The translations under genes and the position numbers were made by a program. A stretch of DNA of 49,355 nucleotides from Elusimicrobia bacterium GWB2_63_22 (GTDB taxonomy: Bacteria; Elusimicrobiota; Elusimicrobia; Elusimicrobiales; UBA9959). The DNA lies in contig MGUA01000007.1 in assembly GCA_001799735.1 (NCBI GenBank), forward strand, positions 1-49,355. The letters are read 5' to 3'. Position 1 is the stretch's first letter; each line of letters begins with the position of its first letter. Shown piece after piece: positions 1-49,355 of this stretch. The notes below the pieces were generated by a model. That model had not been told where the DNA came from. It made no database searches and saw only the letters and a list, made by a program, of their open reading frames with translations.

Positions 1-3000
1 CAGAGCCCCACGGGCCCTCCCGGCACCTGTGAGAACCCCATCTATGCCGGCTCTTTCTTCCTGCCCCCCGGCGAACACGCGGTAAACTACCTCTCTTTCG
101 ACAACGTCTGGAACGCCGAAAGCCCCAAAACCTTCCACCTTACCGTAATCGGCGGCGACATGGTGCCGCCGGAGACTTCCCTCATAATCGACGGTTCCAC
201 AATCCCTGCCGGCGTTACCGCAGAGATCGCCCCTGAAACCCTGACAACCATTTCAGCCATAGACCCCGTTTCCACCGGGACCGTCTCTGGCTTGAAAGAT
301 ATCTATTTCCTAATCGACACAACGCTAGATGCTTGCGGAGAGATGGGACCCGTGGTGTCCACCGCGCCCTCCGGCAGTTGCCAGAATTATCTATATACCG
401 GACCTTTCTCGCTGTCAATTGGCACCCATACGGTGTACTACACCGCGGTGGACAACGTTGGGAACATGGCGACAGTAAAAAGCGCGAGAATAATGGTTAA
501 GCCGGATCTCATTAACCCGGCTTTGCATCCGTTCTATGAACTGTTTTCTGCCTTCGGAGCTCCCGGCTCCGGCCCAGGGCAGTTCAACGCGTACGACGTT
601 AAATTCGACAAGGACGGGAACGCTTTATTGGCCGACAGCGACAATCTCCGCATACAGAAATTCTCTCCCGCCGGAGAATTCATAAGCATGTTCACCGTCA
701 AGAACTATGGTCATTCCTATTTCTACGCGCCCTTGCAGGTGGCGCCGTGTCCCAACGGGGACATCTGGGTCAGCGATTATGGCACGAAGCTCATGCGGTT
801 TACCGCCGACGGCACATTCCTGCGCGAGATGTACATCCAGGATATGGATGAGTTCCATGGGGGGTATCCCAAAAATATAGTCTGCACCGCCGAGAATGAA
901 ATATATTTCCTTACCTGGGCGAACTATATCTTCCGATTGGACAGCCAGGGGAACAAGCTTGGCGAGATAGCGGTAAGCAATAGCGGAAGCTATCTTAACG
1001 GCCTGGGGCGCGACAGCGCAGGCAACCTTTACACGTACCATAACACTACCGGCCAGATCCGCAAATACGCGAAGGCGGGTAATCTGGTCGCCTCCTGGCC
1101 CAGCGCTACTGGTGCAGGATCGGATATGCACGCCGGGGTTTCCGTGGATTCCTTTGACAATATTTATCTCTCAAGGTTCGGCAAGCCGCTTGAAATATAC
1201 ACAAGCACCGGCGGTTTTATAGGTGCCACGGCAAGTGTGCTCGGCCAGGAGGGTTCCCAATACTTCATATCCGCAATAGGAAATGCCTATAATCCCCGCA
1301 GCGGTGACCTATATCTCGCGGAAGGCAGCCGGGTGAAAATACTGCAAATGGACTTTAAAGCGCCGCCGGCGCCTGTCATCGTAAGCCCTCCCGCCGGGGC
1401 CACTGTATTGGTTTCGTCACCGCTGATAACCGGCCAGGCCGAGATCTCCAGCCTGGTGCGGATATATGACTATGGGACTTTGATCAAGGAATTACAGACG
1501 AACACTTCCGGATATTTCGCATTTAGTCTCCCCGCAGAAGCTTTCGGGGGGCATTCGCTTTCGGCGCGGGCGGCCGACGCCGCCGGCAATCTGTCTGAGC
1601 CGTCGGCCACGGCGGCGCTGCGCACCGCGGGGCTCAACGCCCCGGTGTTTGCCCAGCCTCTCGCCGGGCCCAGCGCCCCCGGAGTTTTCGACACCAGCGC
1701 CACCGTGACTGGGGATTTTAACGGCGACGGGATGCTGGATGTCTTCGGGATAGGCAGGGCTTCCGGCTATAACTATGGCGGATATGCTTTGTATAAGGGC
1801 CTTGGGAGCGGCGCTTTTGTGACGGTATCCACCGGCGCGATAGCCGGTTACAGCGACAACCTGGAAGCCGTGGCCTACGATTTTAACGGTGACGGACACC
1901 TGGACGTGGTGACGGGCATGACAGCCGTCGGTCTGGGTATAGACTATCTGATTACCTTAAAAGGCCGCGGTGACGGCACTTTTGACGCTCCGCAGGTCGG
2001 CGACCTGGTTGGAGTCCGCCCGGATATGCTGGTAGAGGATATGGACAAGGACGGTCTCGCGGACCTTGTGCTGTCGGCAAGCAACGGGGTGCGTGTTTAC
2101 TGGGGCAATTCGGCCGGAACTTTTTATCTTTACACTTCAACTCCAGTTCCGCCGGGAACTCACACCGCCGGGTCTTATTCCTCTTATTGTAACGGCGGAC
2201 TGGCCTCGGCGGATTTCGACGGCGACGGGAACACCGACCTGGTTTTCCGCAATGCCGTCCTGTTTGGCAACGGCCGCGCCGGTTTCGGAACGGCCAGGTT
2301 CCTGGCGCTGCCCGTACCTTTCTATGGAGAGATATGCGACGCGCAAAGCCCGGACCTGAACGGCGACGGTGTTCCGGACGTAGCCCTTACCGGATATAGA
2401 GAAAATAAAGTCCTTTCTTTCCTCAACCTCGGCCAAGGAAAGTTCATGCCCGCCGGCTCAGTAACGGTGAACAAACTCGCCTTTGAAAGCGTGGCGGCGG
2501 ACCTGAATGCGGACGGCAAAGAGGATATAGCTCTGTCTCCCGGTGGAGCCGATGCGCTGATAGTGCTGGCCGGCCGCGGCGACGGCACCTTTGCCGGCCC
2601 CTACACTTATGCTAGCGGAGGGACGCCGGGAGAAGTATGGGGACTGGGCGGGTTGAGCGCCGGGGATATAGACCTGGATGGACGGAAGGATATAGTGATG
2701 GCCTCCTCCATACTCTATCTGCCGGGGAGAACCGTCAACAGTTTCATGAGCTACCTTAACCGGGCGGATGTGCCGGACTGGACCCCGCCCGGCGAGGTGG
2801 AGATCGACGCGCAGGCCGATGCCGCCAATGGCATCACGGTGCGCTGGACCGCGCCCGGCGACGACGGTCTTTCCGGCCGCGCCGCTCTTTATGACCTGCG
2901 CTACTCGGAACTGCCCATAACCGACGTCAACGCGTTCTCGGCGGCTACCCGCGTGACCGGGCTTGCCGTGCCCAGCCCTGCCGGCCAGCCGGAGGCGGCG

Positions 3001-6000
3001 ACGGTCGGCGGACTTACCGGTGGCGTAACCTATTACTTCGCCCTTAAGACAGCCGACGAGGCGGGGAACACTTCCGGGTTATCCGACAGCCCCGGGGTTT
3101 TTCTCAAGTTCCTGTTCACCAGCACGGTAGTGGTCGGTGAACTGCCGGAAATGACGTTCAGCGCCTCCACCCGGGCAGAGGCGGAGCTGATAAGCGGCGT
3201 TTCAGGCCCCGGCGCCGTAGTGCTTGGCGCCGCCGCGGAGGCTGGCCTGACCCTGGCCAGTAATCTCTATGAGATCGGGCCTGAAGGCAGCTATGATCCG
3301 CCCGCTACGCTGACATTCGCATATTCCCCTGCCGCTATCGCGGCCTTAGGGCTGAGCGAGGATGATATCGGGATATATGAACACTTCAGCGAGAGGGGCT
3401 GGGTCCTGCTTGAAGGGCAGACTATCGACAGGACTGCGCATACCATAAGCGTGCCCGTAACTCAAATATCGTCGATATTCGCTATTTTTGGAACTGTAAA
3501 GGACAGAGCGGCACCGCAAACAAGTATGGCCGTGTGGTGTGCTACTCTTTCAGGGAACTGCCGCGCAGCCGGGCCGGATGGTGTTGTTTACGCCGACGCC
3601 GTCTCAACGATATCCTTTACCGCCGCCGACCCGGTCCTCTTCGGGACAGCTACCGGGGTTTCGTTCACGGAATTTAAAGTGGACGGCGCTGCGGATTTCG
3701 TGAAATATGCACAGTCCTTCACGCTCGCGCCCGGGATGCATGTCGTGGCTTACCGCAGCGGCGACTACGCCAGTAATCTGGAGCCTCTGCGCGAGGCAAA
3801 AGTATTTTTCGACGCCGAGCCTCCAGTTATCAAAATATCCTCCCCGACGGCCGGGGCGGTATTCAATGCCGGCCGCGGCCCTGTAGTAATAGCCTTTTTA
3901 CTGACGGACAATGCCGGCCCGGCCCCGAGTTACAGCGGCGTTATCCGGCAAACGGCAGATAAAGGCTCTCCCCGCGGGGAACGCCCCGGCATGGTAGCCG
4001 TGTCTTCGACCACTCTGATCGCGCCGCTCGACATAGACGACGGCTTGTGGCGAATAGAGGTGGAGGCTGAGGACGCAGCCGGTAATTCCACACAGGCTGT
4101 TTCAGGTGTTTTTGAAGTGATACATGACACCATTGCGCCGGTGACGGTCCTGCTGGTCGGGGAGCCCAAGCTGACGGATGGAAGCGTTTATATAAGTTCG
4201 GCCACGCCGCTGCAGCTCTCGACAACGGATGACATGCTCATCGGCGGGGACGGGCAGGGCGTGGGAGTGGAATCCGCTTATGCCTCGCTCGACGGCGGGC
4301 CTGCCGCGCCCGTCACTGGCGCTGTTTTTATCTCGGAGGAAGGGGCGCACATGTTCACATATTACAGTGTGGACAAAGCCGGCAATGCGGAATCGCCCAG
4401 GGTCGCTGAGTTTATGGTGGACAACAGCGCTCCCGAAGTATCACATGTTGTAACCAGCCCGGCTTTCTTCGGTGAGGAGCTATATCTTTCGACGTCGTCG
4501 GTCATCGGCCTGTCGGCCGTGGAGCCGCCCTCTTCGGGAGCGGCCAGCGGTCTTGCGGGCATTTTTGTCGCCGAATCAACGGACACTTACGCCGTCTACG
4601 CCGGTACCTTTACGGCTCCGGAAGGCGCTCACGCGTACAATTATTACGCGACAGACCGGCTTGGGAACACCGGAGCGGCAAAAACTTTAATCCTCAAAGT
4701 GGATGGCGCCGCACCTGTGTCCACCATGGCATTCTCCGGCGCCGCTACGGCCGGCGCGGTTGGCAGAACAGTGATATCTTCGTATACCAGCATGGGATTC
4801 GTCGCGGAAGATATTGTGTCCGGCGGGGTGGCTTGTGGGGTGGGCTATATCCTGTATTCCGTGGATAACGGCACGGCCGCGGTATATGCGAGCACTTTTA
4901 CGCTGCCCGAGGGTCTGCATGACATTTCCTACCAGGCTGTGGACAACGTGGGAAATACCGAGTCGGTACGGACCATTGCGCTGCAGGTAGGCGCCTCGCG
5001 CCCGGTGGAACTGAGACTTGAGCCATCCACGATAAACCTCAAGAGCGAGGGACAATACGTGGAAGCAAAGTTGACCGTCTCGAGCTCGGCGGGTGCGGCC
5101 TTTATCGAAGATACAATATGCATAACAAGCATCAATGACGCGCCGCTTGCCACACCTATCTGCGCGCTGCCGGCGAACGGCAATGAAAAGAATGACAACC
5201 AAAAAGTCCAATCCGCTAGCATAGAAGTCCAGTTCGACAGACAGGCGCTCATAAATGTATTGTCGGCAGATAGCCTGGTAAAGCTCGTGGTTGAGGGCTC
5301 CTTTGAGGACGGCTCTTATTTCTCGGCGGAAGACTATCTGCGTGTTATAAACCCGGTCCGGATACGCAAGATACAGGGGGGGAAGGTGAGGCATCTGTCC
5401 TTGGCCGGTGTTGATATTCCCGCCGAGGCCTTAAAAGGGGATACGGACATAACCGTAGTCACAGTTGTCGAACGCGCCGGCGAACAGCAAGAGCGCGCCG
5501 CGCGCGCCTCTGAAAGAGGATTACAGCGCAGGGGCGATATTTATGAATTCGGCCCAGAGGGAGCTGTTTTTGAAACAACCGTGGTCCTCGTGCTGCCCTA
5601 CGACAGTCTTGATCCTGGCAGTGAAAAACTTAACATCGCGTATTGGAATGTTTCAACAAAAGATTGGGAGATATTGGAATCAGAAACAGACTCCGCGGAA
5701 AAGGTCGTAAAAGCTAAAGTGAGACATTTCTCGCTGTATCAGGTGGTTGCCTCTACGGGGTCCGCCCGGGCAATTCGGGCTTCCGTGTCGGCTAATGTGT
5801 CAGCAGGACCTTCGCAGGAGTTCCGTCTCGGCGAGGTTTATGTCTACCCCAACCCGGCCAAGAATGGCCAGGCCCCCACTATCCACCTGGAGTGCGGCCT
5901 AGCCGACAGCGTGAACATCAAGATCTACACTGTAAGCGGCCGCGAGGCGCATGAACACACCATAACCAGCGCCCCGGCTGTGTTGGACGACGGCAATGGC

Positions 6001-6126
6001 CTCAGCTACGCCTATGAATATACCTGGAACAGCCATATTCCAAGCGGCGTGTATTACTACTTCATCGAGGCCGAGCGTGCCGGCAAGAAGATCAAGAAGA
6101 CCGGCAAGTTTGCCGTGGTCAGGTAA
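1..6126 (+). CDS. Giant secreted Ig/NHL/FG-GAP surface protein with FlgD/T9SS-like C-terminus (5' partial)
   Basis: The frame is already open at base 1 and carries the same repeat type, so the gene starts upstream of the window; the ATG at 160 is internal. Repeats of the style DNVGN, typical of OmpL47/Ig-like extracellular repeats, occur near 60-500 and again at about 4100-5000. Between, in order: NHL-type beta-propeller repeats (about 540-1350), FG-GAP/VCBS calcium-binding repeats such as DFNGDGMLD and DLNGDGVPD (about 1700-2700), and a fibronectin type III domain (about 2780-3090). The last 100 residues (about 5830-6123) start YVYPNPAKNG and end in a KKTGKFAVV strand, as in FlgD-Ig / type IX secretion sorting domains. 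Family knowledge suggests an outer-surface or secreted adhesin-like protein. The PorV-like gene follows 9 bases later, which supports the export idea. Substrate or partner is unknown. Confidence 0.9.
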   Translation, partial: QSPTGPPGTCENPIYAGSFFLPPGEHAVNYLSFDNVWNAESPKTFHLTVIGGDMVPPETSLIIDGSTIPAGVTAEIAPETLTTISAIDPVSTGTVSGLKDIYFLIDTTLDACGEMGPVVSTAPSGSCQNYLYTGPFSLSIGTHTVYYTAVDNVGNMATVKSARIMVKPDLINPALHPFYELFSAFGAPGSGPGQFNAYDVKFDKDGNALLADSDNLRIQKFSPAGEFISMFTVKNYGHSYFYAPLQVAPCPNGDIWVSDYGTKLMRFTADGTFLREMYIQDMDEFHGGYPKNIVCTAENEIYFLTWANYIFRLDSQGNKLGEIAVSNSGSYLNGLGRDSAGNLYTYHNTTGQIRKYAKAGNLVASWPSATGAGSDMHAGVSVDSFDNIYLSRFGKPLEIYTSTGGFIGATASVLGQEGSQYFISAIGNAYNPRSGDLYLAEGSRVKILQMDFKAPPAPVIVSPPAGATVLVSSPLITGQAEISSLVRIYDYGTLIKELQTNTSGYFAFSLPAEAFGGHSLSARAADAAGNLSEPSATAALRTAGLNAPVFAQPLAGPSAPGVFDTSATVTGDFNGDGMLDVFGIGRASGYNYGGYALYKGLGSGAFVTVSTGAIAGYSDNLEAVAYDFNGDGHLDVVTGMTAVGLGIDYLITLKGRGDGTFDAPQVGDLVGVRPDMLVEDMDKDGLADLVLSASNGVRVYWGNSAGTFYLYTSTPVPPGTHTAGSYSSYCNGGLASADFDGDGNTDLVFRNAVLFGNGRAGFGTARFLALPVPFYGEICDAQSPDLNGDGVPDVALTGYRENKVLSFLNLGQGKFMPAGSVTVNKLAFESVAADLNADGKEDIALSPGGADALIVLAGRGDGTFAGPYTYASGGTPGEVWGLGGLSAGDIDLDGRKDIVMASSILYLPGRTVNSFMSYLNRADVPDWTPPGEVEIDAQADAANGITVRWTAPGDDGLSGRAALYDLRYSELPITDVNAFSAATRVTGLAVPSPAGQPEAATVGGLTGGVTYYFALKTADEAGNTSGLSDSPGVFLKFLFTSTVVVGELPEMTFSASTRAEAELISGVSGPGAVVLGAAAEAGLTLASNLYEIGPEGSYDPPATLTFAYSPAAIAALGLSEDDIGIYEHFSERGWVLLEGQTIDRTAHTISVPVTQISSIFAIFGTVKDRAAPQTSMAVWCATLSGNCRAAGPDGVVYADAVSTISFTAADPVLFGTATGVSFTEFKVDGAADFVKYAQSFTLAPGMHVVAYRSGDYASNLEPLREAKVFFDAEPPVIKISSPTAGAVFNAGRGPVVIAFLLTDNAGPAPSYSGVIRQTADKGSPRGERPGMVAVSSTTLIAPLDIDDGLWRIEVEAEDAAGNSTQAVSGVFEVIHDTIAPVTVLLVGEPKLTDGSVYISSATPLQLSTTDDMLIGGDGQGVGVESAYASLDGGPAAPVTGAVFISEEGAHMFTYYSVDKAGNAESPRVAEFMVDNSAPEVSHVVTSPAFFGEELYLSTSSVIGLSAVEPPSSGAASGLAGIFVAESTDTYAVYAGTFTAPEGAHAYNYYATDRLGNTGAAKTLILKVDGAAPVSTMAFSGAATAGAVGRTVISSYTSMGFVAEDIVSGGVACGVGYILYSVDNGTAAVYASTFTLPEGLHDISYQAVDNVGNTESVRTIALQVGASRPVELRLEPSTINLKSEGQYVEAKLTVSSSAGAAFIEDTICITSINDAPLATPICALPANGNEKNDNQKVQSASIEVQFDRQALINVLSADSLVKLVVEGSFEDGSYFSAEDYLRVINPVRIRKIQGGKVRHLSLAGVDIPAEALKGDTDITVVTVVERAGEQQERAARASERGLQRRGDIYEFGPEGAVFETTVVLVLPYDSLDPGSEKLNIAYWNVSTKDWEILESETDSAEKVVKAKVRHFSLYQVVASTGSARAIRASVSANVSAGPSQEFRLGEVYVYPNPAKNGQAPTIHLECGLADSVNIKIYTVSGREAHEHTITSAPAVLDDGNGLSYAYEYTWNSHIPSGVYYYFIEAERAGKKIKKTGKFAVVR

Positions 6127-6135
6127 GGGGGACAT

Positions 6136-7110
6136 ATGAAAAACAAAAACACCCCTGACATGCTCAATCGGATGGTCTACCTGCTTTCAAGGCCGTGGGC
6201 CTTTGGCGCGGCGCTGTTGTTCGTGCTTATTCCTTCAACAAAGCTCAGCTCGGCGCTTGAAAGCGGCGCCGAGTTCCTGCGCATAGACACCGATGCGCGG
6301 GCGGGGGCCATGGCTTCTGCCGGCGCGGCTTCGGCTTCCGGCATAAGTGCAATGGCTTATAACCCGGCAGGCATAGTCAGCATGGGCCGGGGGGAGGGCA
6401 CCATAAGCCACAGCGCCTGGTACCTAGGCTCGGCGCACGACTTTGTAGGCGCCGGGGTTACCCTGCCGGGCGCTGGCGGCTGGCGTGCCGGGCTTAGCTT
6501 TAACCGGCTTTCCAGCGGCTCCATGGAGGGCCGCGGCGCAAACCGCACCCGTACCGGCGGCTATACCGCCTACGACCAGGCTGTGGGTTTGGGTCTGGCC
6601 AGGCGCTACGGGGCTTACAGCGTGGGCGGCACGGTGAAATATATCGAAAGTTCAATAGCCGGGGTTAAAGGCAGCGGCTATGCCGTAGACCTGGGGCTGA
6701 AGCGGGGGATAAGGGGCTTGCCGGTAAGCATGGGTTTGTCGGTGCAGAACTTGGGGCCCGGGATAAAGTATATTTCACAACGGGACCAATTGCCTTTAAG
6801 CGTAAGCGCGGGCATAATGTTCATGCCGGTGGCCGGGTTCATGCTTAACTTCGACGCCAAGCGTTATGTGTACGACAAGTACACGGCCTACAGCCTGGGC
6901 AGCGAGTATGCACTATTCGGCGGGCCCGAGAGCATGTCCGGGCTGGCGCTGCGCGGCGGGTTGATGGGTGGCGGCAATGCCGACAGCGCGGCGGGCGCGT
7001 TCACCGCGGGGGCGGGGATAAAGGTGATGAACGCGGACCTGGACTACGCTATGTCGCCGGAGGGGAAGCTGGGCAGTGTGCAGCGGATCACGCTGAAGAA
7101 GAAGTTCTGA
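6136..7110 (+). CDS. PorV/PorQ family outer-membrane beta-barrel protein
   Basis: 324 residues, ATG with AGGGGG 6 bases upstream. There is a long N-terminal hydrophobic segment (about residues 18-38), then the block GAEFLRIDTDARAGAMA and SGISAMAYNPAGI, which is the hallmark start of PorV/PorQ (UPF0164) barrels. The rest alternates Gly/aromatic beta strands and ends in a basic strand with terminal Phe, as outer-membrane barrels do. PorV in Bacteroidetes shuttles type IX secretion substrates; here the gene directly follows a giant protein with a T9SS-like C-terminal domain, so a role in its export or surface attachment is a fair inference. No other secretion component is in the window. A terminator follows. 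Confidence 0.85.
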   Translation: MKNKNTPDMLNRMVYLLSRPWAFGAALLFVLIPSTKLSSALESGAEFLRIDTDARAGAMASAGAASASGISAMAYNPAGIVSMGRGEGTISHSAWYLGSAHDFVGAGVTLPGAGGWRAGLSFNRLSSGSMEGRGANRTRTGGYTAYDQAVGLGLARRYGAYSVGGTVKYIESSIAGVKGSGYAVDLGLKRGIRGLPVSMGLSVQNLGPGIKYISQRDQLPLSVSAGIMFMPVAGFMLNFDAKRYVYDKYTAYSLGSEYALFGGPESMSGLALRGGLMGGGNADSAAGAFTAGAGIKVMNADLDYAMSPEGKLGSVQRITLKKKF

Positions 7111-7196: not shown

Positions 7197-8630
7197 ATGG
7201 CCATCCCGCACAAGTTAAAAACGCTGCTGACCGACCCGCTGCTCCTGCTGCTGGCGGCCGGCATTGCGGCGCGCTGGTTCCTGCTGGGGAGCGGTTCCCT
7301 TACCATAGACGAGATAGGTACGCTGGTCATTGCCCGGCAGCCGCTGCCGGACCTTATCCCCTACACGCTGCACCTCGGCTTCAACCCGCCGCTGTTTAAT
7401 TTCTTCACCTCGCTCTGGCAGTCGCTGGGCGAGGGCGCGCTATGGCTGCGCGCGCTGCCTTTTATCTTCAGCGCGGCGGCGCTGGCCGCCTACCGGAGTT
7501 TCTGTAAAGAATTTTTCAGCGCCGACCCTGAAAGCGGGGCCGCCGCGGCGCGGCTGGCGGTGTTCCTGGGCGCCTTCTCGCCGTTCTGGATAAACCTGGG
7601 CCAGCAGTTCCGTATGTATTCGCTGTTCCTGTTCCTCGCCATCCTGGCCAACCATCTTTTCCTTAAGCTCCTTCGCGGTACTGCGGCCCCGCGCCACCGC
7701 GCGGCTTACGGCGTGGTGCTGCTGCTGGGCCTGTATACCCATTACTATTTCGGTTTCGTCTGGGCGGCGCAGGGGCTCACCACGCTGGTCTTCGTTAAGG
7801 AAGGCCGCGGGCGGCTGGTGCTTACGCAGATAGGGGCCATGCTGGTTTTCCTGCCCTGGCTGGCCGCGGGCATAAAGGCGGTGGGCGTAGTGTCCGGCGT
7901 GCAGAGCATGGACTGGAGCTCGCCTTTTACTTTTCTAGGCAACTTCCTGCTGGGCTGGGGCACGGTAGACATGCTCATCCCGCGGTGGCTGGCCGCCGCC
8001 GGCGTGCTGGGCTTCTGCGCCGCGGCCGCGGGCCTGTGGCGGCTTAAGACCCGCCGCGCCGAGCTGCTGCTGGCCCTGCTGCACATAGCGCTGCCGCTGC
8101 TGTCGGTGCCGGTGCTGGAGCTGCTCACCGGCAACTCCTTCTCCATGCCGCGCTACTGGCTGTTCATCACGCCCTTCTACTACCTGCTGCTGGCCTACGC
8201 CGCCGAAGGCCTGGCCGGCTGGCGCCGTTCGACCGCCAGGATACTCCTGGCCGCCGCCGTGGTCGGCGGACTTTGCGCCTACTATGTGCTCAAAATAAAA
8301 GTGGATCCTTTCTTTCTGCCGGCCGCCCGGAGAATAGAGCAGGTGACCAGGCCCGGCACGCTGGTGCTGCACACCTCGGCCTACTGGTATATGCCGCTCA
8401 AGTATTATTACGCGCCGGGGTTCCGCCACTGCATTATCGCCTCGCCCGGAGAGGAGAACGGCTTTCTGGCCACCGGCTGGCTGCCGGACCATTGCGTGAT
8501 CGGCTCGCTCAAGGACCCGCAGCTGGCGGCCGAACCTTTCCTGCTGGTGGACCCGTACCGCAAGGCTACCGGCCAGCTCCTGTCGCCGGCCTCGCGCCGC
8601 CTGCTGGGCGAGGCCAAACTGATGCCTTAG
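7197..8630 (+). CDS. GT-C fold membrane glycosyltransferase (family 39/PMT-like)
   Basis: 477 residues with about ten hydrophobic segments. The first extracytoplasmic loop has the Asp-Glu pair typical of GT-C enzymes (LTIDEIGT, D38/E39), followed by HLGFNPPLFNF, which matches the H-x-NPP-x motif of dolichyl/undecaprenyl-phosphate sugar transferases of the ArnT/PMT/PMT_2 type. A soluble C-terminal part follows (about residues 370-477). Such enzymes move a sugar from a polyprenyl phosphate donor to a lipid or protein on the outer face of the inner membrane. Acceptor cannot be told. It is a single-gene unit after a terminator; secreted proteins next door are possible acceptors, but that is speculation. 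Confidence 0.75.
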   Translation: MAIPHKLKTLLTDPLLLLLAAGIAARWFLLGSGSLTIDEIGTLVIARQPLPDLIPYTLHLGFNPPLFNFFTSLWQSLGEGALWLRALPFIFSAAALAAYRSFCKEFFSADPESGAAAARLAVFLGAFSPFWINLGQQFRMYSLFLFLAILANHLFLKLLRGTAAPRHRAAYGVVLLLGLYTHYYFGFVWAAQGLTTLVFVKEGRGRLVLTQIGAMLVFLPWLAAGIKAVGVVSGVQSMDWSSPFTFLGNFLLGWGTVDMLIPRWLAAAGVLGFCAAAAGLWRLKTRRAELLLALLHIALPLLSVPVLELLTGNSFSMPRYWLFITPFYYLLLAYAAEGLAGWRRSTARILLAAAVVGGLCAYYVLKIKVDPFFLPAARRIEQVTRPGTLVLHTSAYWYMPLKYYYAPGFRHCIIASPGEENGFLATGWLPDHCVIGSLKDPQLAAEPFLLVDPYRKATGQLLSPASRRLLGEAKLMP

Positions 8631-8649
8631 CGGCCCGCCGCGGCTTTTG

Positions 8650-8655
8650 TATAAT
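8650..8655 (+). promoter_or_regulatory. -10 box TATAAT
   Basis: A perfect TATAAT, 35 bases before the ATG at 8691. This start keeps a short leader with AGGGG as ribosome binding site, unlike the leaderless starts elsewhere. The -35 box is weak. Confidence 0.55.
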
Positions 8656-8690
8656 AAAAAGCGGTAAAAAACAAAAGGGGTCCGAATTTA

Positions 8691-9500
8691 ATGAAGAAAA
8701 TATTAGTCAGGGCAGGCGTCGGCCTGGGCGTGCTTATCCTTATCGCCCTGATAGCGCTGATCCTTGTGCGCAAGCGTACCGCCGAGTGCCGGCAGGGACA
8801 GGGCTCCGTGGCCATAGAGGCCTGCTCCTTCCTGATAAATACATTTCCCAAGGACGCTATCCTGCCCTACCTGGACCTGCGGCGCGGCCATTACGCCGTG
8901 GCCGGGGCCAAGCTGGCCGAACTGGAAGACATGAAGCGCATGATCGCCATGGTAGAGAGCGGCAGGGTCCCTCTGGCTGACCCCCTTAAGGCCGCGATCT
9001 ATGAGAAGGCGGCCGAGGCCTACGCCAAGAACAATAACAAGGAAGAAGCCCTTAAGGCCGCCGATAAGGCCATACAGCTGGGTTCCAGGGACGGCAGCGT
9101 GCACATGATGCGCGGCCTGGCCCGCCTGGAGGCCGAGAAGTACGCCGACGCCATAGCGGATTTCAAAGCGGCCGAAGGGTTCGGCTATAAGCAGCTGCAG
9201 CTTTACATGAGCCTCGGCGCCGCCCACCTCGGGGCCGCCGACTACCTGAGCGCCTACCAGGTGCTCAAAAAATGCGAGGGGATGGCCGCCGCGCCGCAGG
9301 ACGTGGGGCTTATCAACAGGCAGCTGGGTCTGACCAGCTTTGAGCTGAAGAGCTACCAGGAAGCCCTGGACCATATGACCAAGGCCCTGCTGGCCGGCCC
9401 CTGCCCGGACTGCTCCGCCGTTATCAAGATGTCCCAGGAATTCCTGAAGCCCAAACCCAAGCCCAGGGCGTCGCCCAGGAAAAGAACCCGCCGCCGCTGA
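8691..9500 (+). CDS. Membrane-anchored TPR-repeat protein
   Basis: 269 residues. Residues about 6-27 form one hydrophobic helix followed by RKR, giving an N-in signal anchor with the rest likely periplasmic. The body is helical with tetratricopeptide signatures (for example AYAKNNNKEEALKAADKAI, then ARLEAEKYADAIADFKAAE, then SYQEALDHMTKALL). The C-terminal tail is Lys/Pro/Arg rich. Two CXnC-like cysteine pairs are seen (C29/C44 region, and CPDC near residue 240). TPR arrays are protein-binding scaffolds; the partner is unknown. AGGGG lies 12 bases before the ATG. The gene is followed after 39 bases by a SAF-TPR gene, probably in one transcript. Confidence 0.75.
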   Translation: MKKILVRAGVGLGVLILIALIALILVRKRTAECRQGQGSVAIEACSFLINTFPKDAILPYLDLRRGHYAVAGAKLAELEDMKRMIAMVESGRVPLADPLKAAIYEKAAEAYAKNNNKEEALKAADKAIQLGSRDGSVHMMRGLARLEAEKYADAIADFKAAEGFGYKQLQLYMSLGAAHLGAADYLSAYQVLKKCEGMAAAPQDVGLINRQLGLTSFELKSYQEALDHMTKALLAGPCPDCSAVIKMSQEFLKPKPKPRASPRKRTRRR

Positions 9501-20221: not shown

Positions 20222-21370
20222 TTAGTTAAGGTAGGCGCGTATGTCCAGCAGAGCCCTGTCCAGGGCTTCGCGCGAGGCGGTGGGCACGTGGGGCTCTACG
20301 CCGTGGTCCTCTATCGGATTGCCGTCGGGCTGTATCTGTATCCAGGTGGGGATGCGCACCGCGCCGCTGCTGTGCGGCAGCTGTATGGTGACGGGGTAGC
20401 CGCTGCTGCCCATGGTGGTCTCTCCGTAAAGCCTGGCTATCCCGCTGAACTTGAACATCACCGCGGAGCCCTCGCAGGAGCTTACGCAGCCGCCGTCTAT
20501 GAGCATGGCGACCGGGCCCTTGAAGGGGGAATCTCCGCGGGGCTGTATCACGCCGCGCAGGAAGGGCGTCCAGCCGGGGTTCTCCGGGTCCTCTTCCAGC
20601 TCGCCGTAGCGGGCCAGCGTCTCGCTGGAGATCTTTATGGTCACCCTGCCGGCCGGGATAGGCTTGTCTATCAGGAGGGAGATATAGCTGCGGGTGTAGC
20701 CGTCGTTGCCGCCGTGGTTGCCGCGCATGTCCACCACCAGCGCGCGGGCATTCTTGGCCAGCTCCAGGCTTTCGCCGAAACCCTTCTCAAATTCCTCCGG
20801 CTCGCCCGTAAGGCGGGAGACCCGGGTTATGAGTATGCCGTCCTCGGTAAGAGTGTTGGTGACGGCCGGCGGCTGCGGCGGCTGCGGCTGGGAGCCGCCG
20901 TCGTAGAAAGCGGCGCTGAGGTGGGGGTCGCTGAAGAGTTTTATGAACTCCCGCAGGGCCGCCCGGTATTCGGAGTCCGAGCCGGCGGCCCTTACGCGGG
21001 AAAGGAACTGCTCCTTTACGGCAGCGTAAGAAAAGCCGAAGAGCTTCTGTTTGTTCTCCAGGTGGGAGTAGACCGTCTCCATCTTGCCCAGGATGAAGAG
21101 GGCTTCGGCCTCGCGCTCTTGGGCTGTCAGCGGCGCGCGCCTGGCGACGCGGAAAGGGACCTCAAATACGCCGGGGGCTACGGTTTCACCGGAGAAGGGG
21201 CTTATCTTGGCCGCCGTGGCGCCAGCGAGGGCTATGCCGGCCGGGGGCACAGCCGGCGCGCCCGTGAAGGAAAAGGCGCCGTTGGTTTTGCCGTCAAAGG
21301 TGAAGTCCAGGGCCGGGGCGGAGGAGGCCGCAGCCAGCAAGGTTAAAGCCGCGAGGAGGGTTTTTTTCAT
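20222..21370 (-). CDS. S41-family secreted peptidase
   Basis: 382 residues from ATG 21370; a TTG at 21379 would extend it by three residues only, and the signal peptide MKKTLLAALTLLAAASSAPA favours the ATG. Family marks: FSDPHLSAAF (D-x-H), VVDMRGNHGGNDGY and the nucleophile region MLIDGGCVSSCEGSA, followed by RLYGETTMGSSG. The Lys of the CtpA Ser/Lys dyad is not at the usual place after the nucleophile, so it resembles the S41 subgroup that uses a Ser-His-Glu type site. There is no visible PDZ domain. Periplasmic proteolysis is likely. A sigma-54-type promoter sits 13 bases before the start. Confidence 0.8.
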   Translation of the reverse strand: MKKTLLAALTLLAAASSAPALDFTFDGKTNGAFSFTGAPAVPPAGIALAGATAAKISPFSGETVAPGVFEVPFRVARRAPLTAQEREAEALFILGKMETVYSHLENKQKLFGFSYAAVKEQFLSRVRAAGSDSEYRAALREFIKLFSDPHLSAAFYDGGSQPQPPQPPAVTNTLTEDGILITRVSRLTGEPEEFEKGFGESLELAKNARALVVDMRGNHGGNDGYTRSYISLLIDKPIPAGRVTIKISSETLARYGELEEDPENPGWTPFLRGVIQPRGDSPFKGPVAMLIDGGCVSSCEGSAVMFKFSGIARLYGETTMGSSGYPVTIQLPHSSGAVRIPTWIQIQPDGNPIEDHGVEPHVPTASREALDRALLDIRAYLN

Positions 21371-21382
21371 GGTAAACAAAAC

Positions 21383-21400
21383 GGAGCAATTTTTGTGCCG
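21383..21400 (-). promoter_or_regulatory. Sigma-54 type -24/-12 promoter
   Basis: Minus-strand CGGCACAAAAATTGCTCC: GG, exactly 10 bases, GC, with GGCAC and TTGC both as in the RpoN consensus. It lies in the 36-base gap between amidase and S41 genes. The predicted transcription start is about 4 bases before the ATG. Confidence 0.7.
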
Positions 21401-22350: not shown

Positions 22351-22947
22351 TTATTTAAGCGGGCGGACATGCTCTACCCAGAAGTACCACTTGTTGCCGG
22401 TTCCGCCTACCAGGCCTATGCCGGAGCGCAGTATTACGTAGCCGGCCGCTTTGAAGTTTTTCACAAATGACGCTCTGGCGTCCTCAGCGCTGCGTTCGCC
22501 GGGATAGTCGTACATGTGTGTGCCGTCCAGTGCGAAGATGGAGGCGTATTTTTCCGGCGCTTCCGCCGGTTTCCCGGCCGGGGCAATATATTCTATAAAG
22601 AAGATCCATTCGTCAGGGTAACCGGCGCACTCGCGTATTCCGGACCTTAGCACTATATAGCCGGTTTCCTGCAGTATCTTTATGGAAGCGGCCAGTTGCG
22701 ACTGGGCCTCCAGATTGCCCGTGTAGCCGATGAAGTGTTGGTGGCCATTCCAGCCGTTGTAGACGGCAATTTTGGGCCCGGCTTTGCTCGCCATTGGCGC
22801 AGGGGCTGCCGGAATGTTTAATTCCAGAGACGCCAGCCCGGCTTCGCCTGACAGTGCTGTCATTGCGGGGTTTTCCACGCCCATGCCGGACCTGGCTAGC
22901 GTTAACCCCGGGAGTAGCAGAATGGCTATAGTAAGAATCCTCTTCAT
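22351..22947 (-). CDS. Secreted protein with an internally duplicated domain
   Basis: 198 residues with a signal peptide (MKRILTIAILLLPGLTLA). Two copies of one motif are seen: ETGYIVLRSGI ... DEWIFFIEYIAP and AAGYVILRSGI ... NKWYFWVEHVRP, each with an aromatic pair after it. So the mature protein is a two-repeat fold of about 70 residues each. I do not recognise the family. AAGGAGATA is a strong ribosome site. A sigma-54-type promoter precedes it, nearly identical to that of the S41 peptidase gene, so the two are probably co-regulated. Confidence 0.75.
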   Translation of the reverse strand: MKRILTIAILLLPGLTLARSGMGVENPAMTALSGEAGLASLELNIPAAPAPMASKAGPKIAVYNGWNGHQHFIGYTGNLEAQSQLAASIKILQETGYIVLRSGIRECAGYPDEWIFFIEYIAPAGKPAEAPEKYASIFALDGTHMYDYPGERSAEDARASFVKNFKAAGYVILRSGIGLVGGTGNKWYFWVEHVRPLK

Positions 22948-22984: not shown

Positions 22985-23002
22985 GGAGCAATATTTGTGC
23001 CG
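22985..23002 (-). promoter_or_regulatory. Sigma-54 type -24/-12 promoter
   Basis: Minus-strand CGGCACAAATATTGCTCC, 17 of 18 bases equal to the S41 promoter. GG-N10-GC spacing is exact. Predicted start about 29 bases before the ATG. Confidence 0.7.
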
Positions 23003-45688: not shown

Positions 45689-45720
45689 AACGGGCTCCGC
45701 AAGGGGCCCGTTCTTATTTT
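45689..45720 (+). terminator. Terminator after nifS
   Basis: Stem AACGGGC / GCCCGTT, then TTCTTATTTT. Confidence 0.75.
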
Positions 45721-45729
45721 CATGGGAAA

Positions 45730-45745
45730 ATAAGTGTTCTCTTAT
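45730..45745. promoter_or_regulatory. AT-rich dyad upstream of a sigma-54 promoter
   Basis: ATAAG-TGTTCT-CTTAT lies about 60 bases before the -24 element, in the AT-rich stretch GGGAAAATAAG...TATGAAAAT. Possible activator (enhancer) site. Confidence 0.3.
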
Positions 45746-45802
45746 GAAAATATAAACGCAAAATTTCAGCCTGCCGCTGGGGAAACAGCTGGTTTTCATG
45801 CA

Positions 45803-45820
45803 TGGCATAAAAAATGCTCT
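45803..45820 (+). promoter_or_regulatory. Sigma-54 type -24/-12 promoter
   Basis: TGGCATAAAAAATGCTCT: GG (45804-45805), 10 bases, GC (45816-45817). Predicted start near 45829; ATG at 45890 with AAGGAGC. Confidence 0.7.
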
Positions 45821-45889
45821 GTGATGGGTAAGCTGGCCGTAAATAAAGCGGGGGTTGGGTACGGCCAGCCCAGATCTTAAGGAGCTGAC

Positions 45890-46411
45890 ATGAAAAACCT
45901 GGTAAAAATAGCGGTTATAACTTTTGTGGTGCAAGCCGGTCTGGCCAACGCGGCGCCTGGCGCCGCCCTTCAGTCCGGCGCTGCGCGCCCCGTGGCGGTG
46001 GACATCTCCGTAGGCGAACTTTCTGACGCGTCGGCCATGATCTCCGCGGCCTCCGCCGCCGGCAACGACCGCGAGGCCGAGCAACTGCTGTCGCAGCTGT
46101 TCTCGGGCGGGGTGAAAGCCGTAAAGAGCGAGCCGGTCTACGCGGCTAAATGCTGCTGCCATACGGCCGCTGTCCCGCAGGCAGCGGAGAGTGTGGCCTC
46201 GTCCACCGCTACCGTAGCCGTTACCCCCGCCGTTACCGCAGCCGCCCCGATACAAACCCTGGAAACTTGGGCGGAAATAGCGGAAAAAGAAAAAGCGGAG
46301 AAGGCCAAGAAAGACGCCGACGAAGAGAAGGAAAAGGCCAGGAAACAGAAGCAATTCAACTGGGGCGTCACCATACTGGCCGTGGCCCTGCTGCTGTTGT
46401 TCCTGCTGTAA
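45890..46411 (+). CDS. Exported small protein with triple-cysteine motif and C-terminal membrane helix
   Basis: 173 residues. Signal peptide (1-21, ending LANAA). A segment with ELSDASAMISAASAAGNDRE, then KCCCH (C88-C90), then a Ser/Thr/Ala/Val stretch, a strongly charged Glu/Lys helix (about 125-155, EKEKAEKAKKDADEEKEKAR) and a final hydrophobic helix (about 158-173). With a signal peptide and a C-terminal helix it should be anchored in the inner membrane with the cysteines outside. No family recognised. Under a sigma-54-type promoter. Confidence 0.7.
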   Translation: MKNLVKIAVITFVVQAGLANAAPGAALQSGAARPVAVDISVGELSDASAMISAASAAGNDREAEQLLSQLFSGGVKAVKSEPVYAAKCCCHTAAVPQAAESVASSTATVAVTPAVTAAAPIQTLETWAEIAEKEKAEKAKKDADEEKEKARKQKQFNWGVTILAVALLLLFLL

Positions 46412-46442
46412 CCACTTCTTGCAACAAGGGCGAAGCGAGCGT

Positions 46443-46469
46443 AAAAGCGGGCCTTCTGGGCCCGCTTTT
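46443..46469 (+). terminator. Terminator of the triple-cysteine gene
   Basis: Perfect 11-bp stem AAAAGCGGGCC / GGCCCGCTTTT with a 5-base loop. The next gene therefore uses its own promoter. Confidence 0.85.
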
Positions 46470-46500
46470 GCTATTCCAGAGCGGCCCCAGCTCCCCATGC

Positions 46501-46518
46501 TGGCATAAAAATTGTTCT
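46501..46518 (+). promoter_or_regulatory. Sigma-54-like promoter of the ABC exporter
   Basis: TGGCATAAAAATTGTTCT: GG-N10-GT, so the -12 C is a T. Otherwise it matches the 45803 and 48381 elements, also in the TCTGTAT that follows. Confidence 0.55.
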
Positions 46519-46550
46519 GTATATTGTAGGCGTATAACTTTAAGGATGGT

Positions 46551-48254
46551 GTGCCCTATATGATAGAAAAGAGAATTTTCCCGTTGCTGAAAAAACACTA
46601 CTCCGCGGTTCTGGTGATAGTCGGCATGCTGCTCGCCAGGTCGCTGCTCGGGTTTGTCTCTCCGGTCGCGGTGCGCGAGATGCTCGAAGCCGTCACGCTC
46701 CCGGAGCCGTCTGCCGGCAGCCTTGGTCTGTACGCGGCGCTTTTCGCCGGGAGTTTCCTGCTGGGCTACCTGATGAACTGGGGCTTCAACAAGCTATACC
46801 TGGTGTTCTCCTTCCGGTTCAAGGTCGGGTTGAGCAGGGAACTTTACCAGGACCTTTTCAAGATGGATTATCGGCATTTCCAGGACAAGGAGGCCGGGTA
46901 TTTCGTCAGCCGGATCAAGATGCTCACTGACCAGGCCTTCAGCCTGGCCGCGGACAGCATGCCGTCCACCGCGGTCTCGCTGGTGACGCTGGCCGTGGCC
47001 GCTGCGTTTATAGCCTCGGTGAACGTATGGCTCCTGGCCCTGGCGCTGCTGCTGGTGCCGCTCAGCGTCCTGGGGTACAGGTCCGTCAACAAGGAACTAA
47101 AAAAGCGGACCGCCGACTACCAGAGCTCCTATTCCGACAAGTTTAAGAACATTTTTGGTGTGGTGCAGAACATTGAGGCGATAAAGCAGCTCGCTAACGA
47201 CGGGTTCTTCTCTTCGTACGTGGTCAGGCACGTGGAGGAGATGGAGCGCGGCTCCAACGAATTGTCCCTGCACGCCAGGAATGTCAGCATGGGCATGCTG
47301 TTCATGACCGACCTGTTGCGCAACGGCATCCTGCTCGGGTCCATCTACCTGCTTTTCCTCAAGCGCATCTCCTTCCCGGACGTCATGTTCCTTAACATGA
47401 TCATGGGCATCTACTTCGGGGCGCTGAGCGGCCTCACCGGCCTTTCGCTCGGACTGCGCGACGTGCGTGCGAGCTTCGACTTCCTCGAGCAGGAGCTGCG
47501 CGGCAAAGCCGAGAAAGGCGGCAGCGAGGAACTGGAAGGAGTACGGGCGCTCTCCTTCAGGATGGACGGGTTCTCCTATAACGGCAAGAACGATGTGATA
47601 AAAGGCTTTTCTCTGGACCTGAAGCCGGGCGACAGCGTGGCGATAGTCGGGCGCTCGGGCTGCGGCAAGTCCACGCTGGGCAAACTGCTTACCAGGCTGT
47701 ACGGAGCCGACGGCGTGAGCCTCAACGGCAAGCCGGCCGCGCGGTATTCGCTTGAAAGCCTGCGCCGGAAGATCTACCACGTGTCCCAGGCGCCCCAGCT
47801 GTTCCCCGGCACCATAGCGGAGAACATAACCGCCGGCCTGTCGGACCCGGACAAAGTCCGCTATGGGGCGGTGGTCGCCCTGCCTTTCATGCGCGACATC
47901 ACCGAAGGTCACTCCGGGCTGGACTTCCTGCTTAAGGACAATGGCGGCAATCTTTCCGGAGGGCAGCGGCAGCGTGTCACGCTGGCGCGCATGCTGATGC
48001 ACGATCCGGACGTGGTTGTGCTGGACGAATCCACCTCCGCTCTGGACGGCGCGGCCGAGGAGTCGCTGCTGGCCAGCGTCAGGGAGCTCTGCCGCGGGAA
48101 GATCCTGATCTATGTCTCGCACCGCCTTTCCACCGTGAAGCAGGCCGACAGGATAGTGGTCATGCGGGACGGGGCTGTTTCCGGCACGGGCACTTTTGAG
48201 GAGCTCAAGGATGCGGACGCTGAGTTCAAGGAGCTGTTCGCGGCGCAGATGTAG
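46551..48254 (+). CDS. ABC exporter, fused membrane and ATPase domains
   Basis: 567 residues from GTG 46551; ATG 46560 is an alternative, 13 bases from AAGGA. Six membrane helices in the first 310 residues (type-IV exporter fold), then an ATPase with Walker A VGRSGCGKST, Q loop SQAPQLFPGT, signature NLSGGQRQR, Walker B VVVLDESTSALD and switch H in YVSHRLSTVK. All catalytic residues are intact. No N-terminal C39 peptidase domain is present. As a homodimer it could export a lipid, peptide or drug. Neighbours (exported proteins and a cysteine-rich peptide) favour a peptide, but this is inference. Confidence 0.88.
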   Translation: MPYMIEKRIFPLLKKHYSAVLVIVGMLLARSLLGFVSPVAVREMLEAVTLPEPSAGSLGLYAALFAGSFLLGYLMNWGFNKLYLVFSFRFKVGLSRELYQDLFKMDYRHFQDKEAGYFVSRIKMLTDQAFSLAADSMPSTAVSLVTLAVAAAFIASVNVWLLALALLLVPLSVLGYRSVNKELKKRTADYQSSYSDKFKNIFGVVQNIEAIKQLANDGFFSSYVVRHVEEMERGSNELSLHARNVSMGMLFMTDLLRNGILLGSIYLLFLKRISFPDVMFLNMIMGIYFGALSGLTGLSLGLRDVRASFDFLEQELRGKAEKGGSEELEGVRALSFRMDGFSYNGKNDVIKGFSLDLKPGDSVAIVGRSGCGKSTLGKLLTRLYGADGVSLNGKPAARYSLESLRRKIYHVSQAPQLFPGTIAENITAGLSDPDKVRYGAVVALPFMRDITEGHSGLDFLLKDNGGNLSGGQRQRVTLARMLMHDPDVVVLDESTSALDGAAEESLLASVRELCRGKILIYVSHRLSTVKQADRIVVMRDGAVSGTGTFEELKDADAEFKELFAAQM

Positions 48255-48278
48255 GGCGGGCCGCGCCGGCTTCCGGGT

Positions 48279-48310
48279 CGGGCGCCAGGGCGGCGCCCGG
48301 CTTTATTTTC
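48279..48310 (+). terminator. Terminator after the ABC exporter
   Basis: Stem CGGGCGCC / GGCGCCCG, then GCTTTATTTT. Confidence 0.8.
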
Positions 48311-48313
48311 TCT

Positions 48314-48349
48314 GGAAAACATACATTTTCAAATGAAAACATGTTTTCC
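48314..48349. promoter_or_regulatory. AT-rich double dyad upstream of a sigma-54 promoter
   Basis: Outer perfect arms GGAAAACAT (48314-48322) and ATGTTTTCC (48341-48349); inner TTTTC-AAAT-GAAAA. Lies 33-68 bases before the -24 element. Candidate enhancer-binding-protein site. Confidence 0.45.
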
Positions 48350-48380
48350 GGGTTGCCGGTTAAGCGCCAGGCGCGGATTT

Positions 48381-48398
48381 AGGCATAAAAAATGCTCT
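48381..48398 (+). promoter_or_regulatory. Sigma-54 type -24/-12 promoter
   Basis: AGGCATAAAAAATGCTCT: GG (48382-48383), 10 bases, GC (48394-48395). Predicted start near 48407; ATG 48437. Confidence 0.7.
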
Positions 48399-48436
48399 GT
48401 ATCGGGCAAGTAGGTAGATTACAGGAGAAAACAGAT

Positions 48437-49234
48437 ATGAAAAACAGAATAAATAAAGCGGTGTTCGCGGCGGCGCTGCTCCCGCTGCTGGCCGGCGCGG
48501 CCCTGGCGTCCGCCGATGTGCAGGTGGACCAGCAGCAGGCGGGCAAGCCAAAGGCTGTCAGCACCAGCGTGGACAACGCGTCAGATTCGGCCTTTGCCTC
48601 CGATCTCAAAGGCGCGCAGGACCTGCTCAACGGCCTTTCGCACGAGAGGAAGCTGCCTCCCAAGCAGAGCGCCGAATACATCGCGAAGGAAATGGAGCGG
48701 GCCAGGGAATTTTTTAAATACGCCAAAAGCACGCTCGCCCCGCACAGCCTGGCCCTGGTAAAGATGATGAAAGACCCGGAAGGAATGACCGCCAAGGGCA
48801 AGGAAATGGTGGAAAAGGACCCCGCCTCCTGGCAGGGTTATGACTACCTGGCCACCGGCACCATGCTCAAGCAGGATGCCCCGGGCGCCATAGGGTATTT
48901 TGAAAAAGCGCTGGCCGCCGCCCCGGACTTCCAGAAGGACTGGTACCGGTACATGCTCGCCGCCTGCTACAACGCGCAGAAGGAGCCCGCCAAGGCTCTC
49001 GAGACCTATGAGGGCATCATCGTGCGCAACGACAACTGGTTCGCCGTCAAGAACTCGTACATCGGGGCCAGCATGATGCTGCTGGGCAAGGACGACGCCA
49101 AGGCCGTTGCCTACTTCGACAAGGGCTTTCTGCTCTACACCCCCGGCGAACAGGCGGTGCTGAAACGGGGCAAACTGTGCGGCAAGTTCAAGTCCCTGGA
49201 GAAGGGGCCGGCAGCCTGCGCCCAAACCAATTGA
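48437..49234 (+). CDS. Periplasmic TPR protein
   Basis: 265 residues from ATG 48437 (AGGAG upstream). A longer frame from 48392 is rejected, as that codon overlaps the -12 element. Signal peptide MKNRINKAVFAAALLPLLAGAALA. TPR units near YLATGTMLKQDAPGAIGYFE, AACYNAQKEPAKALETYEGI and SMMLLGKDDAKAVAYFDKGF. The C-terminus has two cysteines (KLCGKF and PAACAQ). Likely a periplasmic scaffold. Its promoter type ties it to the triple-cysteine and ABC genes; the cysteine-rich peptide gene follows 35 bases later, probably in one transcript. Confidence 0.8.
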   Translation: MKNRINKAVFAAALLPLLAGAALASADVQVDQQQAGKPKAVSTSVDNASDSAFASDLKGAQDLLNGLSHERKLPPKQSAEYIAKEMERAREFFKYAKSTLAPHSLALVKMMKDPEGMTAKGKEMVEKDPASWQGYDYLATGTMLKQDAPGAIGYFEKALAAAPDFQKDWYRYMLAACYNAQKEPAKALETYEGIIVRNDNWFAVKNSYIGASMMLLGKDDAKAVAYFDKGFLLYTPGEQAVLKRGKLCGKFKSLEKGPAACAQTN

Positions 49235-49269
49235 CTGAAGCGGTAGGGATAAAAAAAGGAGAAAAGAAT

Positions 49270-49355
49270 ATGTCAAAACCGATGATAACCGTTAACAAGG
49301 AACAGGACTGCAGCGTCTGCTCGGAGTGCTCCGAGTGCGGGGATTGCCTGACCGG
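49270..49355 (+). CDS. Cysteine-rich CX2C-repeat peptide (3' partial)
   Basis: The frame runs off the window end after 28 full codons. AGGAG lies 8 bases before the ATG. The start MSKPMITVNKEQD is polar, with no signal peptide, and is followed by CSVCSECSECGDCLT: five cysteines each two residues apart. A ferredoxin would have CX2CX2CX3CP, so this spacing is different. Options are a leader-plus-core modified peptide (RiPP) precursor, a small metal-binding protein or the start of a larger iron-sulfur protein. Total length is unknown. Confidence 0.6.
   Translation, partial: MSKPMITVNKEQDCSVCSECSECGDCLT

Follow-up and report, generated by a model that had tools for sequence, protein, structure and literature searches.

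The DNA stretch analysed here (the window) comprises bases 1-49355 of the 155,874 bp contig C7 of a 3.06 Mb draft genome in 45 contigs, from an uncultured bacterium that its named relatives place in the Elusimicrobiota, and contig and window numbering are identical. Its right-hand end raises the question of what four consecutive genes, which on re-reading of the window are all present as the first-pass annotation had claimed, might do together. They were taken to form a candidate undescribed export system, consisting of an anchored KCCCH protein, an ABC exporter, a TPR protein and a small peptide, and functionally linked by gene order and promoter type. The window stops at a 29-N assembly gap (contig 49356-49384), which lies directly past its end, and the incompleteness of the last gene is therefore an assembly effect. 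The right edge of the window holds only the first half of a cluster, the remainder of which continues on the contig beyond the gap. The features are as follows.

45803..45817, plus strand: predicted sigma-54-type site TGGCATAAAAAATGC (GGCATAAAAAATGC at 45804), upstream of the KCCCH gene
45890..46411, plus strand: KCCCH anchored protein P0003, 173 aa, a neighbour judged to lie outside the cassette
46501..46515, plus strand: predicted sigma-54-type site TGGCATAAAAATTGT (GGCATAAAAATTGT at 46502), a variant in which the last base is T, not C, upstream of the exporter gene
46560..48254, plus strand: ABC exporter P0004, TMD-NBD in one chain, no C39 peptidase
48381..48395, plus strand: predicted sigma-54-type site AGGCATAAAAAATGC (GGCATAAAAAATGC at 48382), upstream of the TPR gene, with an equivalent in five relatives
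48437..49234, plus strand: secreted TPR protein P0005, 265 aa
49270..49355, plus strand: precursor peptide copy 1, MSKPMITVNKEQDCSVCSECSECGDCLT..., truncated by the assembly gap
contig 49394: predicted sigma-54-type site GGCATAAAAATTGC, past the gap, upstream of peptide copy 2
contig 49478-49618: precursor peptide copy 2, 46 aa, MSKPIITVNKEQDCSVCAECTECFDQCYIGIQLAAGSAGLIITHNF
contig 49696-49845: precursor peptide copy 3, 49 aa, MSKPMITVNKEQDCSVCSECSECGDCLTGSNAFQIAAGSAGLIVTHYFG
contig 49904-51283: radical SAM/SPASM enzyme, 459 aa
contig 51344-52954: secreted HExxH protein, 536 aa, motif HELTH

Downstream of the HExxH gene there is a putative tRNA-like sequence, followed by a gene on the opposite strand. 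The annotation had suggested looking past position 49355 for a radical SAM enzyme and for repeats of the peptide gene, and both are there: the 459-aa radical SAM/SPASM gene at 49904-51283 and, past the gap, two further complete peptide copies of 46 and 49 aa. The combination of peptide copies, a radical SAM/SPASM enzyme and a conserved cluster suggests that the locus is very probably a RiPP cassette, most likely a sactipeptide-like one. This reading is based on what can be taken directly from the sequence, namely gene content, order, conservation, enzyme family and cysteine spacing. The peptide is probably the modified and exported product of the cassette. The earlier suggestion that the peptide may be the exported or modified product stands, while the label 'export system' is too narrow, the locus being recognisable as an AlbA/SkfB-like RiPP cassette and not as a novel exporter type.

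The small peptide does have five evenly spaced cysteines, at residues 14, 17, 20, 23 and 26 of copy 1. Over the 84 bases seen, copy 1 and copy 3 differ by one synonymous change; with so little difference between sequences on either side of the gap, the locus may hold either two or three copies. One or two short cysteine-rich peptides are found directly upstream of the enzyme gene in seven of the eight relatives with an enzyme ortholog. The exception is G156, in which the weak match is an unconvincing reading frame and no precursor was found at the enzyme locus (L059). The leader of the precursors is conserved (MSxPxI...), and four or five cysteines at three-residue intervals open the core, which closes with a tail of small and hydrophobic residues. 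Cysteines 14, 17, 20 and 23 (copy 3 numbering) are invariant in all 11 peptides from eight genomes, our own included, and cysteine 26 is kept in ten of them. Pairwise identity among the 11 precursors is 0.40 in the leader columns, 0.31 after the cysteines and 0.13 between them, so that a conserved leader and a variable core lie beside a modifying enzyme, the pattern by which a RiPP is recognised. Synonymous change exceeds non-synonymous change both between copy 3 and the peptide of G014 (pS 0.59, pN 0.20) and between the two peptide copies of G008 (pS 0.40, pN 0.08), which indicates that the precursors are real genes under selection. Searches of the precursors against the Pfam and NCBIfam models gave no convincing family match and no match to a sactipeptide precursor, and no subtilosin A chain was recovered from the PDB sequence set.

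The CxxCxxC spacing is like one half of a 4Fe-4S motif, and a few of the 11 precursors have Fer4 matches, so that the peptide could be a small metal-binding or ferredoxin-like protein, with the radical SAM gene next to it by chance. These matches are weak and sub-threshold, however (best E 0.011), the CP end of the Fer4 motif is absent and the spacing is CxxCxxCxxCxxC. In addition, the peptides are short, occur in tandem, lie next to the enzyme gene in eight genomes and vary between the cysteines while the leader is conserved. We rejected the ferredoxin reading on the Fer4 scores and on the pattern of leader and cysteine conservation, and consider it extremely improbable.

The RiPP reading is carried further by the enzyme. 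Its best match, out of 109 NCBIfam families, is AlbA, the subtilosin maturase (E 5.7e-71), with enzyme residues 49-432 aligned to positions 47-430 of the 442-position model and the next family 108 bits lower. The score of 239.3 bits lies far below the curated NCBIfam equivalog cut-off of 850 for AlbA, and by its sequence the enzyme is AlbA-like, not AlbA. Each of the five orthologs that were scanned likewise has a match to the AlbA model. Pfam Radical_SAM and SPASM are both above cut-off in the enzyme, and the CX3CX2C motif (CNYRCKHC) and all C-terminal SPASM cysteines are invariant across five orthologs; CX3CX2C and SPASM in a protein whose nearest family is a known sactisynthase are the features looked for in a sactipeptide enzyme. 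SkfB ranks first in a profile search of solved structures (E 1.1e-28). An AlphaFold2 model was made from the ortholog of GWA2_61_42 (G014), with an alignment of only six sequences, and has a mean pLDDT of 64.6; the N-terminal domain and the core are well predicted and the C-terminal SPASM part is of low confidence. In a Foldseek search with this model SkfB, SuiB, CteB and TigE came out on top, all of them RiPP maturases, and these top fold matches bear an RRE. The N-terminal domain of the model, of strands and helix, has pLDDT values that mostly exceed 80 between residues 41 and 100, and the PqqD match of the enzyme at residues 41-90 is weak and below cut-off (E 0.088). A search for named relatives on plasmids gave only remote radical SAM proteins, at 25-30%.

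It is quite likely that the chemistry is that of the sactipeptides, S-to-C-alpha thioethers. The same cassette could also serve another chemistry, with thioethers to beta- or gamma-carbons as in ranthipeptides, epimerisation or C-C links, since family similarity alone leaves the regiochemistry open and some peptides originally classed as sactipeptides have turned out to be ranthipeptides (PMC8172795). SuiB and CteB, moreover, are also among the fold matches. We consider this unlikely, as AlbA is far ahead of the other families and the best structural match, SkfB, is a C-alpha thioether enzyme. The cysteines also lie at the N-terminus of the core, ahead of the possible acceptors, an arrangement shared with nested-hairpin sactipeptides. 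In SCIFF-type peptides the cysteines are interleaved with the acceptors. SCIFF and ranthipeptide systems (CteB, PapB) share with the Elusimicrobiota locus a cysteine-rich precursor and a radical SAM/SPASM enzyme, one of them, CteB, among the fold matches, but the enzyme match is weaker and the Elusimicrobiota cysteines are clustered before the tail, not interleaved with acceptors.

A sactipeptide reading invites comparison with the known systems, which are mainly from Bacillus and Clostridium (PMC8172795). AlbA acts by leader recognition, alpha-hydrogen abstraction and attack by cysteine thiols (PMC8172795). In the subtilosin A system (sboA, albA) the resemblance lies in the enzyme, AlbA being the closest family over nearly the full length, and in a core with N-terminal cysteines and a C-terminal tail; the Elusimicrobiota system differs in its score (239 bits versus 850), in having four or five cysteines versus three and in a precursor that is unmatched by Pfam and NCBIfam models. 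SkfB, of the sporulation killing factor, is the best match among solved structures in both sequence and fold, yet that peptide has one thioether and one disulfide (PMC8172795) versus the four or five cysteines of the Elusimicrobiota precursors. In cluster architecture there is a likeness to thurincin H of Bacillus thuringiensis (thnA1-A3, thnB, thnP, thnDET), which combines tandem precursors (three identical genes) with a single SPASM/Twitch maturase with an RRE, a protease and a three-part ABC transporter (PMC8172795). Its links are Cys4-Ser28, Cys7-Thr25, Cys10-Thr22 and Cys13-Asn19 (PMC8172795), that is, its donor cysteines are three residues apart as in the Elusimicrobiota precursors. The shared CxxCxxCxxC spacing makes the nested hairpin the natural model here, with acceptors that cannot be assigned from the sequence. 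Unlike the thurincin H system, the Elusimicrobiota cassette has an enzyme that matches AlbA better than the thurincin model, five cysteines, no precursor sequence match, only a candidate protease (the HExxH protein) and an extra secreted TPR partner, and it is found in another phylum.

Orthologs of the enzyme were identified in eight other Elusimicrobiota genomes at 42-74% identity: GWA2_61_42 (G014, 74%), GWC2_61_19 (G021, 60%), CG08_59_10 (G004, 52%), G239 (49%, truncated), G228 (48%), GWF2_62_30 (G008, 45%), G137 (44%) and G156 (42%). When 295 genomes were drawn evenly from the phylum, seven of them, our own among these, had an enzyme match at E <= 1e-40, and the distribution of the cassette is therefore patchy. 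A scan of genome contigs with two short patterns, which divergent relatives would escape, gave no close relative outside the phylum. Gene order, which the annotation had proposed to check in related genomes, is kept; an unconserved order together with a ferredoxin-like peptide, the outcome it had named as speaking against the linked set, did not occur. In G014 the locus is split over two contigs, one of which (C6) ends with HExxH, exporter and TPR genes, while the other (C18) opens with a pair of peptide genes, after which come the enzyme, an ABC-2 ATPase, two permeases and then the downstream genes that our own genome has as well. P0004 has a 76% ortholog in this genome, in the same cluster and in no other genome, the next best match being at 28%. 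From this arrangement it follows that exporter, TPR, peptides, enzyme and HExxH are clustered in both of the closest genomes. Two of the more distant loci have other neighbours. In G137 (L058, reverse complement, 1330-6523) the peptide is preceded by genes for a 522-aa cobalamin-binding/radical SAM-like enzyme and for a methyltransferase-like protein, as well as by additional transport genes. In G156 (L059, C49, reverse complement, 7769-8959) the enzyme ortholog is the most distant of all; after it comes a lipoprotein-like subtilisin-type (S8) protease and no transporter, and this locus perhaps represents a different branch.

Two kinds of transporter accompany the enzyme. P0004 is the complete ABC exporter that had been annotated, with membrane and ATPase domains in one chain; ABC_membrane and ABC_tran are its only Pfam matches above cut-off, and no C39 peptidase domain was found at its N-terminus with Pfam, the domain that marks peptidase-containing RiPP exporters. 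In G014, G021, G004, G008, G228 and G137 an ABC-2-type ATPase and small membrane proteins, the latter judged from reading of the sequence, lie downstream of the enzyme. An ortholog of this ABC-2 set elsewhere in our own genome was sought and rejected, the best ATPase match being 33%. P0004 may carry out peptide export in our own genome, which has no ABC-2 set after the enzyme. The TPR protein is secreted and has two invariant C-terminal cysteines. Within the relatives panel of 41 genomes its orthologs occur in five, exactly the five with an enzyme ortholog. The TPR gene is within the cluster in G021, G004, G008, G228 (in these four directly upstream of the peptide) and G137 (downstream of the transporter) and across the contig break in G014. 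A fold search with a model of the protein returned generic TPR proteins only, none at E <= 0.001. We propose that it acts as a dedicated periplasmic partner, in immunity, delivery or reception. The HExxH protein is a candidate leader peptidase, a role that is a proposal only, because genomes that lack the enzyme have homologs too.

In the pathway that we infer, the N-terminal recognition domain of the enzyme would bind the precursor leader, and the enzyme would abstract alpha-hydrogens from residues of the tail, which S-to-C-alpha thioethers would then link to the cysteines, the likely topology being a nested hairpin like that of thurincin H. The leader would be removed next, possibly by the HExxH protein, and ABC transporters would export the product, P0004 in this genome and the ABC-2 ATPase with two permeases in the relatives. 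The exported peptide would act outside the cell, with the secreted TPR protein as its periplasmic partner. As a whole this explanation, a RiPP cluster of the sactipeptide kind with nested cross-links, ABC export and a TPR partner, appears likely to us. The chances that the peptide has an antibacterial function seem about evenly balanced. It may instead be a signal, a metal chelator or a cofactor precursor that acts on the producing cell itself, its receptor being the TPR protein; a dedicated TPR partner would fit such a role, sigma-54-type promoters serve other secreted-protein genes too, and for most sactipeptides the role in the producer is unknown (PMC8172795). We find this doubtful, given that tandem variable precursors, clustered exporters and a patchy distribution (7/295) resemble a weapon more than a housekeeping factor.

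In the literature searched we found no sactipeptide described from Elusimicrobiota, a largely uncultured phylum, and no description of a TPR partner, for immunity or for reception or delivery, in sactipeptide systems. We tentatively speculate that the cassette represents a new RiPP family, in which five-cysteine precursors are linked to largely non-functionalised Ala, Val, Leu and Gly and a periplasmic TPR protein is an obligate partner in immunity or in reception or delivery. The strictly co-occurring TPR protein may be a new type of partner that provides immunity to cross-linked peptides or delivers them. The cassette is small and conserved and its precursors are defined, which makes it directly testable in E. 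coli, and the 11 divergent precursors are a natural set for learning the substrate tolerance of an AlbA-like enzyme.

The annotation had tied the first genes together by their promoters. Each of the first three genes does have a sigma-54-type GG-N10-GC site ahead of it, that at 46502 being a variant, and since sigma-54 is encoded in the genome (Sigma54_DBD was found) these are predicted sigma-54 promoters. Of the five occurrences of GGCATAAAAA(A/T)TGC in the 3.06 Mb genome, three are at this locus, and three of nine versions with an A/T spacer lie within 3.65 kb (p ~4e-4 under random placement). A like site is present about 40-65 bases upstream of the TPR gene in G014, G004, G008, G228 and G137, and also upstream of the peptide in G014, G008 and G137. 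The same motif also precedes genes of unrelated secreted proteins, so that a shared promoter type alone links nothing, and we rejected it as proof of functional linkage. The remaining two exact GGCATAAAAA(A/T)TGC sites (L077, reverse complement, 2306; L078, 1992) are upstream of unrelated small secreted proteins. Within the window, on the minus strand, a GGCACAAAAATTGC site at 21386-21399 precedes an S41-peptidase-like secreted protein (20222-21379) and a GGCACAAATATTGC site at 22988-23001 precedes a small secreted protein (22351-22947). The distribution of the sites suggests a sigma-54 regulon of exported proteins that is not specific to the cassette, and sigma-54 has been viewed as a controller of the cell exterior (PMC3162934).

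The KCCCH protein exists as annotated, with a signal-like N-terminus, the KCCCH motif and a C-terminal hydrophobic anchor in 173 aa. Its place in the set is another matter. Homologs were found in G005, G015, G017 and G003, none of which has an enzyme or TPR ortholog, and the motif is not conserved, being KCCPY in G005 and KHCPC in G015 and lost in G017 and G003. On these grounds we rejected P0003 as a member of the cassette. The G015 homolog follows a nifU/nifS-like pair, as P0003 does in our own genome, which suggests that P0003 is a resident of that site. The original four-gene export system, with the KCCCH protein included and promoter type as the link, has gene order and the shared promoter-like sites of the window in its favour, but given homologs elsewhere without the cassette, an unconserved motif and a promoter motif that also precedes unrelated secreted proteins, it is very improbable. 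Directly after the KCCCH homolog of G015 (L074, C23, 6153-7237) there are genes of a 66-aa secreted-looking peptide and of a 288-aa protein, a different, short radical SAM-like one, and the two may be a further peptide-modifying pair at this site.
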